A stretch of DNA of 12,984 nt from Anaerobacillus sp. (lineage in GTDB: Bacteria; Bacillota; Bacilli; Bacillales; Anaerobacillaceae), in NCBI GenBank assembly GCA_007118195.1, contig SKSA01000325.1, positions 1 to 12,984 of the forward strand, given 5' to 3'. Below are positions 9,075-12,984 of this stretch, one piece after another; position 1 is the first letter of the stretch, and each line of letters starts with the position of its first letter. The position numbers and the translations under genes were made by a program. A model generated the notes under the pieces. It was not told the origin of the DNA. It saw only the letters and a program-made list of their open reading frames with translations, and ran no database searches.

Positions 9075-9473
9075 ATGAGAAAAGCATTAAATTTTTTAGC
9101 GAGCGGATTTTTATTACTGATTTTTATTACTGGATGTACTGAAGGGGAAGCAAGCATTGGGCAAATGCACGTTAACGATATCCTTGAAAGGATGGCTCAA
9201 TCAGAGGAGACAGGTGATGGCGCCGTCTATATCGATGTTAGAGAGGTTCATGAATATGACGATGCCTACATCGAAGGGTTTATCAACTACCCGTTAAGTA
9301 ATCTCGAAGAAACGTTTCGTGACTTACCAAAGGATAAAGAAATTATCATTATATGCCGCAGTGGTAACCGCAGTATGCAAGCAGCGTCGCTCTTAAAGCA
9401 AAATGGCTTTGATCAAGTGACGAACGTTCAAGGAGCAATGGTAGAATGGCAAGGAGAGACTAGTTCAAAATAA
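9075..9473 (+). CDS. Rhodanese-domain lipoprotein (predicted sulfurtransferase, outer face of membrane)
   Basis: 132 residues. A short signal peptide (MRKALNFLASGFLLLIF) ends in lipobox ITGC, so Cys21 should be lipidated and the protein anchored outside the membrane. The rest is a single rhodanese domain (about 30-128): VYIDVREVHEYDDAYIEGFINYPL near its start and the active-site loop CRSGNRS (94-100) with the persulfide-carrying Cys94. The domain is complete and catalytic-type. Single-domain rhodaneses move sulfane sulfur between thiols or from thiosulfate; the substrate cannot be read from sequence. The ATG follows an exact AGGAGG at short spacing. It is a single gene between mgtE (divergent) and the oxidase operon (convergent), ended by repeat copy B. 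A G/C-tract dyad in its leader and a persulfide-sensor-like repressor gene nearby hint at control by reactive sulfur. Confidence 0.9.
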   Translation: MRKALNFLASGFLLLIFITGCTEGEASIGQMHVNDILERMAQSEETGDGAVYIDVREVHEYDDAYIEGFINYPLSNLEETFRDLPKDKEIIIICRSGNRSMQAASLLKQNGFDQVTNVQGAMVEWQGETSSK

Positions 9474-9482
9474 AAAGCATTA

Positions 9483-9604
9483 AAAGGGCTGCCCCAAAAA
9501 AAGTGTCAGACACCGTTAGGTACCTAAATATAGACGTTAAATCTGTATGTCTATATTTAGTAGTTTTACCTGGTGTCAGACACTTATGGGACTGCCCTTT
9601 TTTT
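9483..9604. repeat. Palindromic intergenic repeat, copy B, doubling as bidirectional terminator
   Basis: Same family and orientation as 3982-4100. Outer arms AAAGGGCTGCCCC (9483-9495) and GGGACTGCCCTTT (9588-9600) pair at 11 of 13 positions and are followed by a T-run, so this copy has terminator form for the rhodanese gene and, on the other strand, for the oxidase operon. AAGTGTCAGACACC (9501-9514) pairs with GGTGTCAGACACTT (9572-9585), and CTAAATATAGAC (9524-9535) with GTCTATATTTAG (9549-9560) perfectly. Each GTGTCAGACAC is itself palindromic. Confidence 0.88.
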
Positions 9605-9666: not shown

Positions 9667-11367
9667 TTATTTGATAAGGTAATCAAACGTTGGTGATCCT
9701 GGAGGTGCGTTAACGATCATATCGTAAATAGGAATTGTGTATGCAAATAAAATTAATACGATTGCAATACCAATCCATAGTTTCCAATTTTCAAAGACTT
9801 TCGGTGTTTCTGAAGCATCTTCTGCTGGCTCACTAATTGGGAATTCAGTGTCACCTTTAGGTGCTAACCAAGTCATATAAATGAAGTTATAAAACATCAT
9901 TACAGCAGCTACGAATAAAATAACGCCACCGATCGCAATGGTAATATAGTTCGTGAAAATCCCTTCAAACCAAACTAATGCATCTGGGTGGTTTTGATAG
10001 GTTGTATAAGCAGTACGACGGGGAGCTCCTAAAAGTCCAATTAAATGCATACCACCAGACATAAAGAACATACCAATTGCCCATAGCCATGTTTGTACCA
10101 TACCTAAGCGGTTCAAAAATGGAGTGAATTTTCTACCAGTTAAATGTGGAATTAACCAATAGGAAATACCAAAGAACGTAAGTAAAACGGTTGAGCCAAC
10201 AGTTAAGTGGAAATGCCCAACTACCCAAAGCGTGTTGTGAATCACCGCATTCATTTGAAAACTTGCATTAATAATTCCGCCGGCCCCTGCAGGGATAAAG
10301 ATAATCATACCCATAAACGGAGCGAAGAAACGTACATCCTTCCAAGGTAGTTTATGCAACCAGTAAAAGATACCTGTACCACCTTTAGCACGGCCTGTTT
10401 GCTCGAACGTACCAAAAATAGAGAAAGCAGTCATTAATGATGGAACGATGACAACGAAAGTTAGTAATGTTTGAATGAATTTCCACATATGAGAAATCCC
10501 AGCTTCCATTAATTGATGGTGAAACCCTACTGGGATTGAGAATAATAAGAATAATACGAAAGCCATACGAGCGAGAGAGTCACTAAATAACTTTCCACCA
10601 ATGATCTTTGGTATTGAAACATACCAAGCAATATAAGCTGGTAATAACCAGAAATAAACAAGAGGATGTCCGAAATACCAGAATAACGTACGACTTAATA
10701 AAACGTTAATTTCATCTGTAAGTCCAAACGCCCAAGGGATCATTTGTAGTAATACCGTAACGGCAACCCCTAAACAAGCGATAATCCATAAAACAATTGT
10801 TGCAACTGTCATGTAACCAAATAACGGTGTCCGCTCGCCTTTATGCGCTTTTTTCCAGCTAAAATAATGCGCAAGAAGTGCTGCTCCACTAATCCAACTA
10901 CCAACAACGAACAGTGTTAAACCGACATAATATAGTGGGTGTGCTGTTAATGGTGCGTAAAAAGTATAAAGAACAGAGGCCTCATTTAAAATAATGAGTA
11001 CTGCTGCTAAAAGTGTACCGATCGTTAATACAATAAAACCAGTCCAGCTTAGCTTACGAAGTCGATCACTGAAAGCTCCGTGAGTTCGACTCATCCCAGC
11101 AAATAGAAATGCAAATATAAAATAAGTTGTAAATACTAGTGCAAGTAAAACTCCGTGAGCTGTTAAAATTTGATAATAACCGAGCCAGCTAGGAAGTTCA
11201 ATCATGCCCCCTCTTACTAAACCTTGCAGGAGACCGGCAATCGCGCCGACTAGAAAAGCAGAAAATGCGATATATATGTGAGCCATGCTTAAGGCAGCAT
11301 CTTTTGGTGCTACTCTAACATCTAAATCTGAACTATATTCTTCGACTCTTAATGCTGAATTTTTCAT
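9667..11367 (-). CDS. cbaA: Cytochrome c oxidase subunit I, B-type (ba3-like)
   Basis: 566 residues, about 13 membrane helices, the size of ba3-type subunit I (CbaA). It is the catalytic subunit that reduces O2 to water and pumps protons. Metal ligands are all present: low-spin haem His71 (TAHGV) and His387, high-spin haem His385 (WVVGHFHLT, 381-389), CuB ligands His234 (GHPLVYFW, with cross-linked Tyr238) and His283-His284 (GFHHQLME). The spacing His-Pro-Leu-Val-Tyr and the lack of the A-type D-channel signature place it in the B family, which generally has high O2 affinity. The N-terminal ~25 residues are cytoplasmic and hydrophilic. Its ATG overlaps the subunit II stop by 4 bp (ATGA, 11367-11364), implying translational coupling. 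No subunit III or haem A synthesis gene is visible. The operon ends at repeat copy B. Confidence 0.95.
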   Translation of the reverse strand: MKNSALRVEEYSSDLDVRVAPKDAALSMAHIYIAFSAFLVGAIAGLLQGLVRGGMIELPSWLGYYQILTAHGVLLALVFTTYFIFAFLFAGMSRTHGAFSDRLRKLSWTGFIVLTIGTLLAAVLIILNEASVLYTFYAPLTAHPLYYVGLTLFVVGSWISGAALLAHYFSWKKAHKGERTPLFGYMTVATIVLWIIACLGVAVTVLLQMIPWAFGLTDEINVLLSRTLFWYFGHPLVYFWLLPAYIAWYVSIPKIIGGKLFSDSLARMAFVLFLLFSIPVGFHHQLMEAGISHMWKFIQTLLTFVVIVPSLMTAFSIFGTFEQTGRAKGGTGIFYWLHKLPWKDVRFFAPFMGMIIFIPAGAGGIINASFQMNAVIHNTLWVVGHFHLTVGSTVLLTFFGISYWLIPHLTGRKFTPFLNRLGMVQTWLWAIGMFFMSGGMHLIGLLGAPRRTAYTTYQNHPDALVWFEGIFTNYITIAIGGVILFVAAVMMFYNFIYMTWLAPKGDTEFPISEPAEDASETPKVFENWKLWIGIAIVLILFAYTIPIYDMIVNAPPGSPTFDYLIK

Positions 11368-11834
11368 TCGACCACCTCAATTGTCATTTGCATATGATGA
11401 TGACCCGTACCACAATACTCATTACATAAAACGAGATAAGTACCAGGCTCTGTAAAGGTATGCTCAGCCATATTTATATGACCAGGAGTTACCATGAAGT
11501 TTACGTTTGTATTCGGAATAGTAAATGAGTGAACAACGTCAGAGCTCGTTACATGAAAGCGAACTGTCGACCCAACTGGAACTTCAATCTTATTAGGTTG
11601 ATAAGTAAAAGCCATGGCGATAATGTTTGCTTGATAAGTAGTTTCATCAATTTGACGTAAACCAGGCTCATCGAATGGTGCCTCGCTTCTTACGTTTTGT
11701 GGATCCACTTTAGCCATATGACTTGGTGGTTGATGCCCCATAGCAAATGCGCTCACGCCCAAAACAGTTAAAAATATAATAAGTGAGCCAATGCCAAATG
11801 TTAACCAAATTTTTTCATAACGATGTAAATGCAT
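11364..11834 (-). CDS. cbaB: Cytochrome c oxidase subunit II, ba3-type, CuA protein
   Basis: 156 residues, the short form seen in ba3 oxidases: one N-terminal membrane helix (about 9-32) and an extracytoplasmic cupredoxin domain. The CuA site is complete: His102 (VVHSFTIP), Cys137 and Cys141 (CNEYC), His145 and Met148 (CGTGHHHMQM). It receives electrons from cytochrome c and passes them to the low-spin haem of subunit I. The ATG at 11834 is preceded by GGGAGGGGG at slightly long spacing (about 12 nt), 23 bp after the small membrane peptide. The stop overlaps the subunit I start. Without the second N-terminal helix of A-type subunit II, it agrees with the B-type call for subunit I. Confidence 0.94.
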   Translation of the reverse strand: MHLHRYEKIWLTFGIGSLIIFLTVLGVSAFAMGHQPPSHMAKVDPQNVRSEAPFDEPGLRQIDETTYQANIIAMAFTYQPNKIEVPVGSTVRFHVTSSDVVHSFTIPNTNVNFMVTPGHINMAEHTFTEPGTYLVLCNEYCGTGHHHMQMTIEVVE

Positions 11835-11857
11835 AAAATAATTCCCCCTCCCGAGTG

Positions 11858-12019
11858 TTACATTCTATTTAAGAATAAAAAGAAAATAGCAGACCAAGAT
11901 AATACGATAAACAAACCGATGGACATCGTGAATATAAATGTTCCTTTTAACGAAGATGAATCAGTTTCCGTAGGAACATGTTTTTTGTTTGTTTCAAGGT
12001 TTGCGTTATTTTTAGACAT
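11858..12019 (-). CDS. 53-residue single-helix membrane peptide, probable oxidase subunit IIa
   Basis: A short gene on the minus strand, first in the oxidase operon. Translated it reads MSKNNANLETNKKHVPTETD, then SSSLKG, then one hydrophobic helix (about 27-49, TFIFTMSIGLFIVLSWSAIF), ending FLFLNRM. AAGGAGGG lies 7 nt before the ATG, one of the best ribosome binding sites in the window, and the stop is 23 bp before subunit II. ba3 oxidases carry a one-helix subunit IIa that replaces the missing first helix of subunit II; size, topology and position all fit. The hydrophilic N terminus is longer than in the 34-residue Thermus peptide. The call rests on context and topology rather than on a catalytic motif. 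Confidence 0.8.
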   Translation of the reverse strand: MSKNNANLETNKKHVPTETDSSSLKGTFIFTMSIGLFIVLSWSAIFFLFLNRM

Positions 12020-12031
12020 GTAATACCCTCC

Positions 12032-12043
12032 TTATCATGATAA
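12032..12043. promoter_or_regulatory. 12-bp palindrome in the oxidase leader
   Basis: TTATCATGATAA is exactly self-complementary and lies between the proximal promoter and the ribosome binding site of the 53-residue gene. It recalls the GATAA half-sites of Fur/PerR boxes but is too short for a full one. Confidence 0.3.
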
Positions 12044-12064
12044 TTAAGACCCCCATAGATACAT

Positions 12065-12093
12065 AATATAGGATGAAAAGTATATATTTTCAA
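12065..12093 (-). promoter_or_regulatory. Proximal sigma-A promoter of the oxidase operon
   Basis: Minus-strand TTGAAA (12093-12088), a 17-bp spacer, then TATATT (12070-12065). Both boxes are near consensus with ideal spacing, giving a start near 12058 and a ~40-nt leader that begins with a CTATGGGGGTC stretch. Confidence 0.65.
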
Positions 12094-12183
12094 AAAAATA
12101 TGAAAATACGGTGACAGTTTTAAACGTTAATTCGTTATAAAACATAAAAGTAGTAGAAAGAGTAGAAACTTAATTCTATTACT

Positions 12184-12225
12184 ATTATATAGAGTTAAAA
12201 CTTAAATTCTGTGACAAAAGTCACA
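12184..12225 (-). promoter_or_regulatory. Fnr/Crp-family box (12210-12225) with class-II-spaced distal promoter for the oxidase operon
   Basis: TGTGACAAAAGTCACA is an exact TGTGA-N6-TCACA dyad, the consensus for Fnr of B. subtilis and for Crp-family proteins. On the minus strand a perfect -10 TATAAT lies at 12189-12184, giving a start near 12177 and placing the dyad centre (12217.5) at about -40.5 to -41.5, the class II activator position. No good -35 box is present, as expected for an activator-dependent promoter. The transcript would enter the oxidase genes after a ~158-nt leader. The regulator itself is not in the window. Confidence 0.6.
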
Positions 12226-12255
12226 TTTCAAGTGAATTGAAATCGATAAATTACG

Positions 12256-12285
12256 TTGCTTTTCAGTGGGAGCATATCATAAAAT
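12256..12285 (+). promoter_or_regulatory. Candidate promoter of the cstR-like gene
   Basis: TTGCTT (12256-12261), an 18-bp spacer, TAAAAT (12280-12285). It would start near 12292, leaving about 50 nt of leader. The -35 is weak and the call is tentative. Confidence 0.35.
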
Positions 12286-12343
12286 AAAGGTAGTAATTGT
12301 CGGATTTAGGATGATGAAATAAAAAACTTATGGGGGAATTAGA

Positions 12344-12607
12344 ATGGAAAAGTATGATGATAAAGTAAAAAATAGATTAAAAAGAATCGAAGGGCAAGTT
12401 CGAGGAATTATTAAAATGATGGACGAAGAAAAAGACTGCCAAGATGTCGTCGGGCAAATGGCTGCTGTTCGCAATGCACTCGATCGTGCACTCGGTGTCG
12501 TTGTAAGTAGCAACTTAGAAGATTGTATTCGAAAACAAATTGAAAACGGTGAAGATACTGAGGAAACGATAAAAGAAGCGGTAAATTTATTGGTGAAAAG
12601 CCGATAG
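12344..12607 (+). CDS. cstR: CsoR-family repressor, CstR-like persulfide sensor
   Basis: 87 residues, all-helical DUF156/CsoR family: KNRLKRIEGQVRGIIKMM (9-26) is the family's DNA-binding first helix. The sensing positions are Cys32 (KDCQDV) and Cys61 (NLEDCI). The position that carries the copper-binding His in CsoR is Asn57 (SSNLEDC), and the N-terminal His ligands of RcnR/FrmR are absent. Cys-Asn-Cys is the pattern of CstR, where the two cysteines form sulfur-bridged links on exposure to persulfides and the repressor leaves DNA. The C terminus EAVNLLVKSR also matches CstR. The ATG follows GGGGGAA by about 8 nt. It is a single gene divergent from the oxidase operon; the rhodanese lipoprotein gene is the nearest sulfur-related candidate target. 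H2S inhibits haem-copper oxidases, so the neighbourhood makes physiological sense, but targets are inferred. Confidence 0.85.
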   Translation: MEKYDDKVKNRLKRIEGQVRGIIKMMDEEKDCQDVVGQMAAVRNALDRALGVVVSSNLEDCIRKQIENGEDTEETIKEAVNLLVKSR

Positions 12608-12684
12608 TAGTTTTGAATTTTGAGTGTTGAGTTGTTTTAGTATCGCTTCGTCGTTTTGTTAATACGCTGTTTTTTTATTGTTTG

Positions 12685-12702
12685 CGGACAGGAATATGTC
12701 CG
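12685..12702. other. Short hairpin after cstR-like gene
   Basis: CGGACA and TGTCCG form a 6-bp stem around GGAATA. The right flank is TAAAAAAT, not a T-run, so it does not look like an intrinsic terminator for either strand. Confidence 0.45.
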
Positions 12703-12741
12703 TAAAAAATCTATATATGAGTTATTTTCAATCGTTAAACG

Positions 12742-12780
12742 GAGGGTGTCCTATTAGTAGTGGGACACCCTCGTTTTTTT
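12742..12780 (+). terminator. Rho-independent terminator downstream of the cstR-like gene
   Basis: GAGGGTGTCC (12742-12751) and GGACACCCTC (12763-12772) form a perfect 10-bp stem with an 11-nt loop, followed by GTTTTTTT. It is a textbook rightward terminator about 135 bp after the stop codon. Confidence 0.88.
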
Positions 12781-12781
12781 A

Positions 12782-12919
12782 GAACCGACTTCAGAATATC
12801 AAGTGTACGGTCCTAAAGTAGGTTTTATTGAAGAAATGACGTCTAATGTCGCACTCATGCGACAATTAATCCTTAAATGGTTTAAGGGTTATAGACCCCC
12901 ACCTCAACGCGTAGCGTAG
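12782..12919 (+). pseudogene. Remnant of a GerA-family spore germinant receptor subunit gene
   Basis: In frame from 12782 the translation begins EPTSEYQVYGPKVGFIEEMT and continues SNVALMRQLI, then LKWFKGYRPPPQRVA before TAG 12917-12919. The first ~30 residues fit the conserved EP-x-S/T-E-x-x-x-x-GP-(R/K)-x-GF-x-E-x-x-x-x-N-x-ALxR block of GerA-type receptor A subunits, normally found 100 or more residues into a ~480-residue membrane protein. Nothing before it is coding: a terminator T-run abuts it and no start or ribosome binding site is present. After MRQLI the resemblance stops where a series of hairpins begins. It therefore looks like a fragment left by deletion or insertion. The sporulation link is consistent with Bacillaceae. 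Confidence 0.6.
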
Positions 12920-12984
12920 GTGGGAACTTTTAATCAGGTGGAGTCGAGACTCCATCTGATTTCTCGATGTTTCAGCTTGCTGAA
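12868..12984. other. Chain of hairpins at the window edge, possibly an IS200/IS605-type element end or structured RNA
   Basis: Four hairpins follow each other. AATCCTTAAA/TTTAAGGGTT (12868-12890) has a TGG loop. CCCACCT-ca-ACGC/GCGT-AGGTGGG (12898-12924) has a GTA loop. AATCAGGTGGAGTC/GACTCCATCTGATT (12932-12961) has a 14-bp stem with one G-U. TTCAGC/GCTGAA (12971-12984) is at the cut edge. A smaller TGTCGC/GCGACA hairpin precedes them at 12847-12864. Subterminal hairpins like these are typical of IS200/IS605/IS1341 ends, whose TnpB guide RNA also ends in such structure. The element, if real, continues outside the window. Confidence 0.45.

Follow-up and report, generated by a model that had tools for sequence, protein, structure and literature searches.

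Bacillus nar genes are activated by Fnr from class II promoters, in which a TGTGA-N6-TCACA dyad is placed near -41 and followed by a TATAAT-like -10 element, with no -35 box. In Proteobacteria, the cbb3 oxidase is under Fnr/FixK control, and the dyad there has a sequence other than the one described below. For ba3 operons, FNR control has likewise been predicted in Candidatus Accumulibacter, a proteobacterium whose ba3 clustered with FNR-repressed genes (PMC6446978). The qCuANOR of Bacillus azotoformans, in turn, shares the cbaC-cbaB-cbaA gene order and has related subunits with CuA; it is however an NO reductase with Asn in the place of the oxidase tyrosine, a position that is taken by Asn, Asp, Gln or Glu among qCuANOR enzymes (PMC3475470).

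The locus analysed here is located in a window of 12,984 nucleotides (the whole stretch of DNA under study), representing contig 92 of a 2.7 Mb, 62% complete Anaerobacillus metagenome-assembled genome. Among the matches listed, the closest named record is Anaerobacillus arseniciselenatis, with a CbaA identity of 96%. The operon comprises three genes:

11858-12019, minus strand: first operon gene, a 53-aa ORF with one hydrophobic stretch, CbaC-like by position
11364-11834, minus strand: CbaB, CuA subunit II (PF00116)
9667-11367, minus strand: CbaA, subunit I of a ba3-type oxidase (PF00115), with H234/Y238

Searches of the 53-aa ORF against Pfam and NCBIfam returned no match. CbaA has H234, Y238, H283 and H284, with the cross-link tyrosine beside a CuB histidine as in B-family O2 reductases. 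Since the window CbaA keeps the oxidase tyrosine, unlike the B. azotoformans enzyme with its Asn, the operon encodes an O2 reductase and not the related NO reductase, and the qCuANOR assignment was rejected; the sequence-only reading had likewise named a ba3-type oxidase. Across 130 CbaA records, a set that contains the window's own protein and two duplicates, tyrosine occupies this position in 120 and Asn in 10, five of the latter from Anaerobacillus. One genome of the genus (G005) gave no match to CbaA.

The neighbours of the cba genes are a divergent gene for a CsoR/CstR-type repressor (12344-12607; Cys 32, Cys 61) on one side and a convergent rhodanese lipoprotein gene (9075-9473) on the other. 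Of the five relatives in the genus that have cba, four carry the repressor gene at the locus and all five the rhodanese gene. A similar repressor, YrkD, is a sulfane sulfur sensor in B. licheniformis (PMC9918477), and by analogy a tie between the ba3 oxidase and persulfide handling is possible. The rhodanese gene and cbaA converge on an inverted repeat with arms AGTGTCAGACACC and GGTGTCAGACACT at 9502-9584, which may represent a terminator or a repeat element.

Upstream of the operon, the following elements were located:

12210-12225, minus strand: Fnr/Crp-type dyad, putative activator site, exact TGTGA-N6-TCACA (TGTGACAAAAGTCACA; minus-strand reading TGTGACTTTTGTCACA)
12189-12184, minus strand: perfect -10 hexamer TATAAT, 20 nt past the dyad, without a -35
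12177, minus strand: predicted transcript start, inferred from the -10, 7 nt beyond the hexamer
12111-12157, minus strand: block between upstream promoter and gene, kept across the six aligned loci of the genus
12093-12065, minus strand: possible proximal promoter TTGAAA-17-TATATT, matching the consensus at 10/12 positions

The initial proposal of an exact dyad about 41 bp before a start predicted from TATAAT, lacking a -35 box, is borne out by these positions, as the dyad centre at 12217.5 falls at -40.5 relative to the inferred start. The hexamers at spacers of 16, 17 and 18 are CAGAAT, ACAGAA and CACAGA, which match TTGACA at 2, 1 and 2 of 6 positions, and the dyad-linked promoter is absent from the output of a consensus promoter scan. 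The cba promoter thereby resembles those of the Bacillus nar genes in its dyad near -41, its TATAAT-like -10 and its missing -35, whereas it differs in serving an O2 reductase and in a gap between dyad and -10 of 20 in the genus and 21 in most relatives. With two mismatches allowed, dyads are not in excess in the window (3 found against 5.97 expected); the weight of the site comes from its exactness and its conservation.

A near-consensus proximal promoter, and with it dual control, had also been suggested. TTGAAA-17-TATATT is indeed present, but of its two hexamers only the -10 is kept in the genus, and the 421-base stretch that contains it holds 5 promoter-like sites against 2.8 expected; a proximal promoter, and dual control through it, is possible but weakly supported. 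The block at 12111-12157 displays TTTTATGTT-like repeats in several species. A search for a structured RNA leader in 11800-12984 yielded no Rfam match at E <= 1, and a plasmid collection searched with 12020-12343 contained no relatives.

We then turned to the relatives of the operon. The sample of 108 Bacillales loci combines 30 (own included; the best 30 of those listed) with 78 named ones from the best 80 of 545 confirmed matches, L057 and L063 having been removed before counting as they lie on the same contigs as L028 and L033, and it is biased to close relatives. Interrupted cba copies in G038 and G051 were excluded. The search zone for the dyad ran from 560 to 1250 nt upstream of CbaA. 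Two loci with a dyad farther out (L038, L099) and four with 2-mismatch dyads (L043, L046, L088, L113) were scored as missing. With at most one mismatch, the dyad is present in 84 of the 108 upstream regions, compared to a mean of 2.75 and a maximum of 8 in order-1 Markov resamples (20 rounds) and to none for the reversed pattern; exact dyads occur in 36 of the 108, against 0.05 in the resamples. In every one of the 84 dyad loci a TAnnnT hexamer follows 20-22 nt past the dyad (gap 20, n=8; gap 21, n=66; gap 22, n=10), while the background rate of TAnnnT beside dyads of the own genome is 3.7% per position. The spacing between dyad and -10, named beforehand as a check, is hence retained, within 20-22 nt, in all loci that have the dyad. 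All six Anaerobacillus cba loci combine an exact dyad with a gap of 20, followed by TATAAT in five and TATACT in one. The full layout was recovered in 63 of the 78 named loci; when these are sorted by record title, it occurs in 25 of 31 groups, including Geobacillus, Anoxybacillus, Paenibacillus, Cytobacillus and Planomicrobium. What emerges is the arrangement of a class II Crp/Fnr promoter, with a dyad near -41 of the inferred start, a good -10, no -35 and a fixed spacing in relatives.

The layout is not universal. At up to one mismatch in the zone 560-1250 nt before CbaA, no dyad was detected in 24 of the 108 loci, including Evansella/Salipaludibacillus (4/4), Halobacillus (2/2), and Brevibacillus, Ectobacillus and Salimicrobium (1/1 each). 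Five further cba loci outside the 108 were positive in three cases. Evansella/Salipaludibacillus (L058-L061), which are near by CbaA identity, possess Fnr and have the dyad only as degenerate 2-mismatch forms. Among paralogues, the promoter layout was found in 1 of 10 of the Asn-type, NO-reductase-like copies, and it is absent from all four members of a Tyr-type group at 55-57% identity (L177-L180), in one of which, L180, a dyad stands 1272 nt upstream but no -10 follows it, as well as from L181 (59% identity). Five Anaerobacillus genomes (L167-L171) harbor a second cba copy, which is Asn-type and has no dyad.

The fixed spacing also bears on the sign of control. Fnr might repress the operon, or tune a promoter driven mainly by others, such as ResD or the proximal promoter. 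Conservation of the proximal -10 and of the further block in the genus would suit such a role, as would the grouping of ba3 genes with FNR-repressed genes in Ca. Accumulibacter (PMC6446978). A site near -41 without a -35 is however an activation layout, and repression leaves the constant gap in 84/84 loci unexplained; moreover, ba3 transcript levels were high during the anaerobic stage in another Accumulibacter clade (PMC6446978). We therefore regard repression or tuning as quite improbable, and activation through the dyad as the preferred reading.

The bases of the site bear on which protein would exert this activation. The genome has a Rex gene, and the S. aureus Rex site TTGTGAAW4TTCACAA contains the same core (PMC2883068); the dyad could accordingly be a Rex operator, with the oxidase derepressed on a rise in NADH. 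Binding is retained by natural S. aureus Rex sites mismatched at positions 1 and 7, in most cases with lower affinity (PMC2883068); the site in the window deviates at these two positions in each half. The conserved sites argue against Rex more broadly: the combination of A at position 6 and T at position 11 occurs in 0 of 84, and where Rex has A and T the cba sites mostly carry C/T (77/84) and A/G (76/84). The full Rex form is found in 4 of the 17 exact dyads of the genome, unlike the conserved cba sites, and Rex would leave the fixed distance between dyad and -10 unaccounted for. As the inner bases are non-Rex in 84/84 cba sites, departing from TTGTGAA-N4-TTCACAA, Rex was rejected as the conserved regulator and we hold a Rex operator to be very improbable, while weak Rex binding to the cba dyad is possible.

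Fnr-type candidates are present in the genome. A Crp helix-turn-helix model gave nine matches, five of which are Crp/Fnr proteins by Pfam; three of the five end in CxxCx4C and keep an Asp at the position of the fourth cluster ligand of B. subtilis Fnr, and two lack these cysteines. B. cereus Fnr provides four C-terminal cysteines for its [4Fe-4S] cluster (PMC5047918), and several cba-linked regulators likewise have four. Three Cys-type Fnr-like paralogues thus coexist in one incomplete genome (L019, L020 and L021, on contigs C133, C334 and C261 of G000). A recognition helix of the form RE..R is common to all five Crp/Fnr proteins, and for this reason the DNA site alone cannot name one regulator; any of the three Cys-type paralogues may be the one that binds.

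The distribution of Fnr among relatives was surveyed in 74 genomes (24 + 50, the latter being 50 of the 78 named loci). Fnr was called by eye at E <= 1e-35 together with a reach to query residue 231 or beyond, and by E alone for G070 and G072. In 29 loci whose sequence was read, the reach agreed every time with the Cys motif (present in 22, absent from 7); L145 was read in a wrong frame, and in L166 the motif occurs at E 1.8e-33. Of the 50 dyad genomes, 47 have Cys-type Fnr, compared to 14 of the 24 dyad-less ones (Fisher p 4e-4, kinship not corrected), the three dyad genomes without it being G052, L106 and L110. In addition, 16 relatives have a Crp/Fnr gene no more than 4 kb from cba, and 14 of these linked genes encode the Cys motif. 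Eleven of the 16 are placed upstream in the same direction and one likewise at 3.6 kb (G009), two are downstream (Fictibacillus), one is convergent (G043) and one is antisense upstream (a Paenibacillus). Ten of these genes are from the 80 named loci (the two duplicates among the 80) and six, chosen by eye on their coordinates, from the 24 genomes; a hit cut off at the edge of L130 and a Cys-less Crp/Fnr gene near the Asn-type copy in G057 were left uncounted.

A Crp/Fnr regulator without an Fe-S cluster, for example one of the proteins on contigs C203 and C37, might instead bind the dyad and activate on another signal. Pfam assigns both proteins to the Crp/Fnr fold, their recognition helix is likewise RE..R, and two dyad genomes without Cys-type Fnr, Tenuibacillus and Alkalibacillus (L106, L110), have a Crp/Fnr gene without the cysteines and the Asp directly beside cba. 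There, a switch of signal is possible. The predominance of Cys-type proteins, both among linked regulators (14/16) and across dyad genomes (47/50), speaks against a Cys-less regulator as the general solution, which we consider unlikely.

Dyads are likewise enriched beyond cba. The 2.7 Mb genome contains 17 exact dyads against 1 for the reversed pattern, and six other genomes of the genus have 13 to 26 against 0 to 6. In the same genome, an exact dyad precedes a NarK-family transporter gene (-10 at gap 22), a gene for a 2-oxoacid oxidoreductase of the PorC/KorC type (with TATAAT at gap 21), the gene of a 330-aa protein without a family match (gap 21), and pflB, where no -10 is seen at gap 20-22. 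Genome-wide, TAnnnT follows at gap 20-22 in 8 of 34 dyad orientations, with about 3.7 expected, so a gap of 20-22 is weak as a general rule for dyads.

Aggregated, we consider it likely that the cba dyad is where Fe-S Fnr binds at low O2 to activate a promoter of class II. The class II Fnr reading that was put forward at the outset is strengthened by the conserved spacing, the Fe-S-type Fnr genes, the 14 loci with linked Cys-type Fnr, the association of dyad and Fnr, the non-Rex inner bases, the rarity of the layout among Asn-type paralogues and the exact dyads before pflB, the NarK-family gene and the 2-oxoacid oxidoreductase gene. The 24 of 108 loci without a dyad, the 14 of 24 dyad-less genomes that still have Cys-type Fnr, the three dyad genomes that lack it, the weakness of the gap rule genome-wide and the genus gap of 20 where 21 is usual count against it. 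In the mechanism we propose, Fe-S Fnr would bind TGTGA-N6-TCACA centred near -41 when O2 is scarce, and the bound protein would recruit RNA polymerase with sigma-A to a promoter whose -10 is good but which has no -35, whereby the oxidase would be produced when oxygen is limiting. Where O2 is plentiful, the cluster would be lost and the dyad promoter would fall silent. As in the proteobacterial cbb3 systems, an oxidase presumed to function at low O2 would be under an Fnr-family activator; cba differs in its unrelated oxidase family, its dyad and its phylum, and in that its Fnr control is predicted.

At the outset, Fnr control of B-type oxidases in this group was not known to have been described, and for ba3 in Bacillales no description was found in a limited search of open-licence literature. 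In N2-fixing Paenibacillus, fnr and several cytochrome oxidase genes are induced, ba3 not being named in the portion of that source cited here (PMC4774088). Fnr-family control of oxidases is thus already known as a kind, and there is weak evidence that ba3 as an Fnr target in Bacillales is new. Most Anaerobacillus species are reported not to utilise oxygen, A. beveridgei being one that does (PMC11944866), which makes the promoter worth testing in this genus; being conserved, it is also accessible to study in relatives from Geobacillus or Bacillus that can be cultured. The promoter, like the active-site residue, tells oxidase copies from NO-reductase-like ones.

On balance we lean slightly towards a wider view, in which the ba3 oxidase is a core Fnr target across Bacillales, with an adjacent Fnr paralogue in several lineages. 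If so, the anaerobic switch would itself install an oxygen consumer, an O2 reductase would be added to the Fnr regulon of Gram-positive bacteria, and the system would constitute a Gram-positive counterpart of Fnr/FixK control of cbb3. Anaerobacillus would then keep its ba3 oxidase for the removal or respiration of trace O2, which could explain the retention of such an enzyme in a genus whose species mostly do not use oxygen, as reported.
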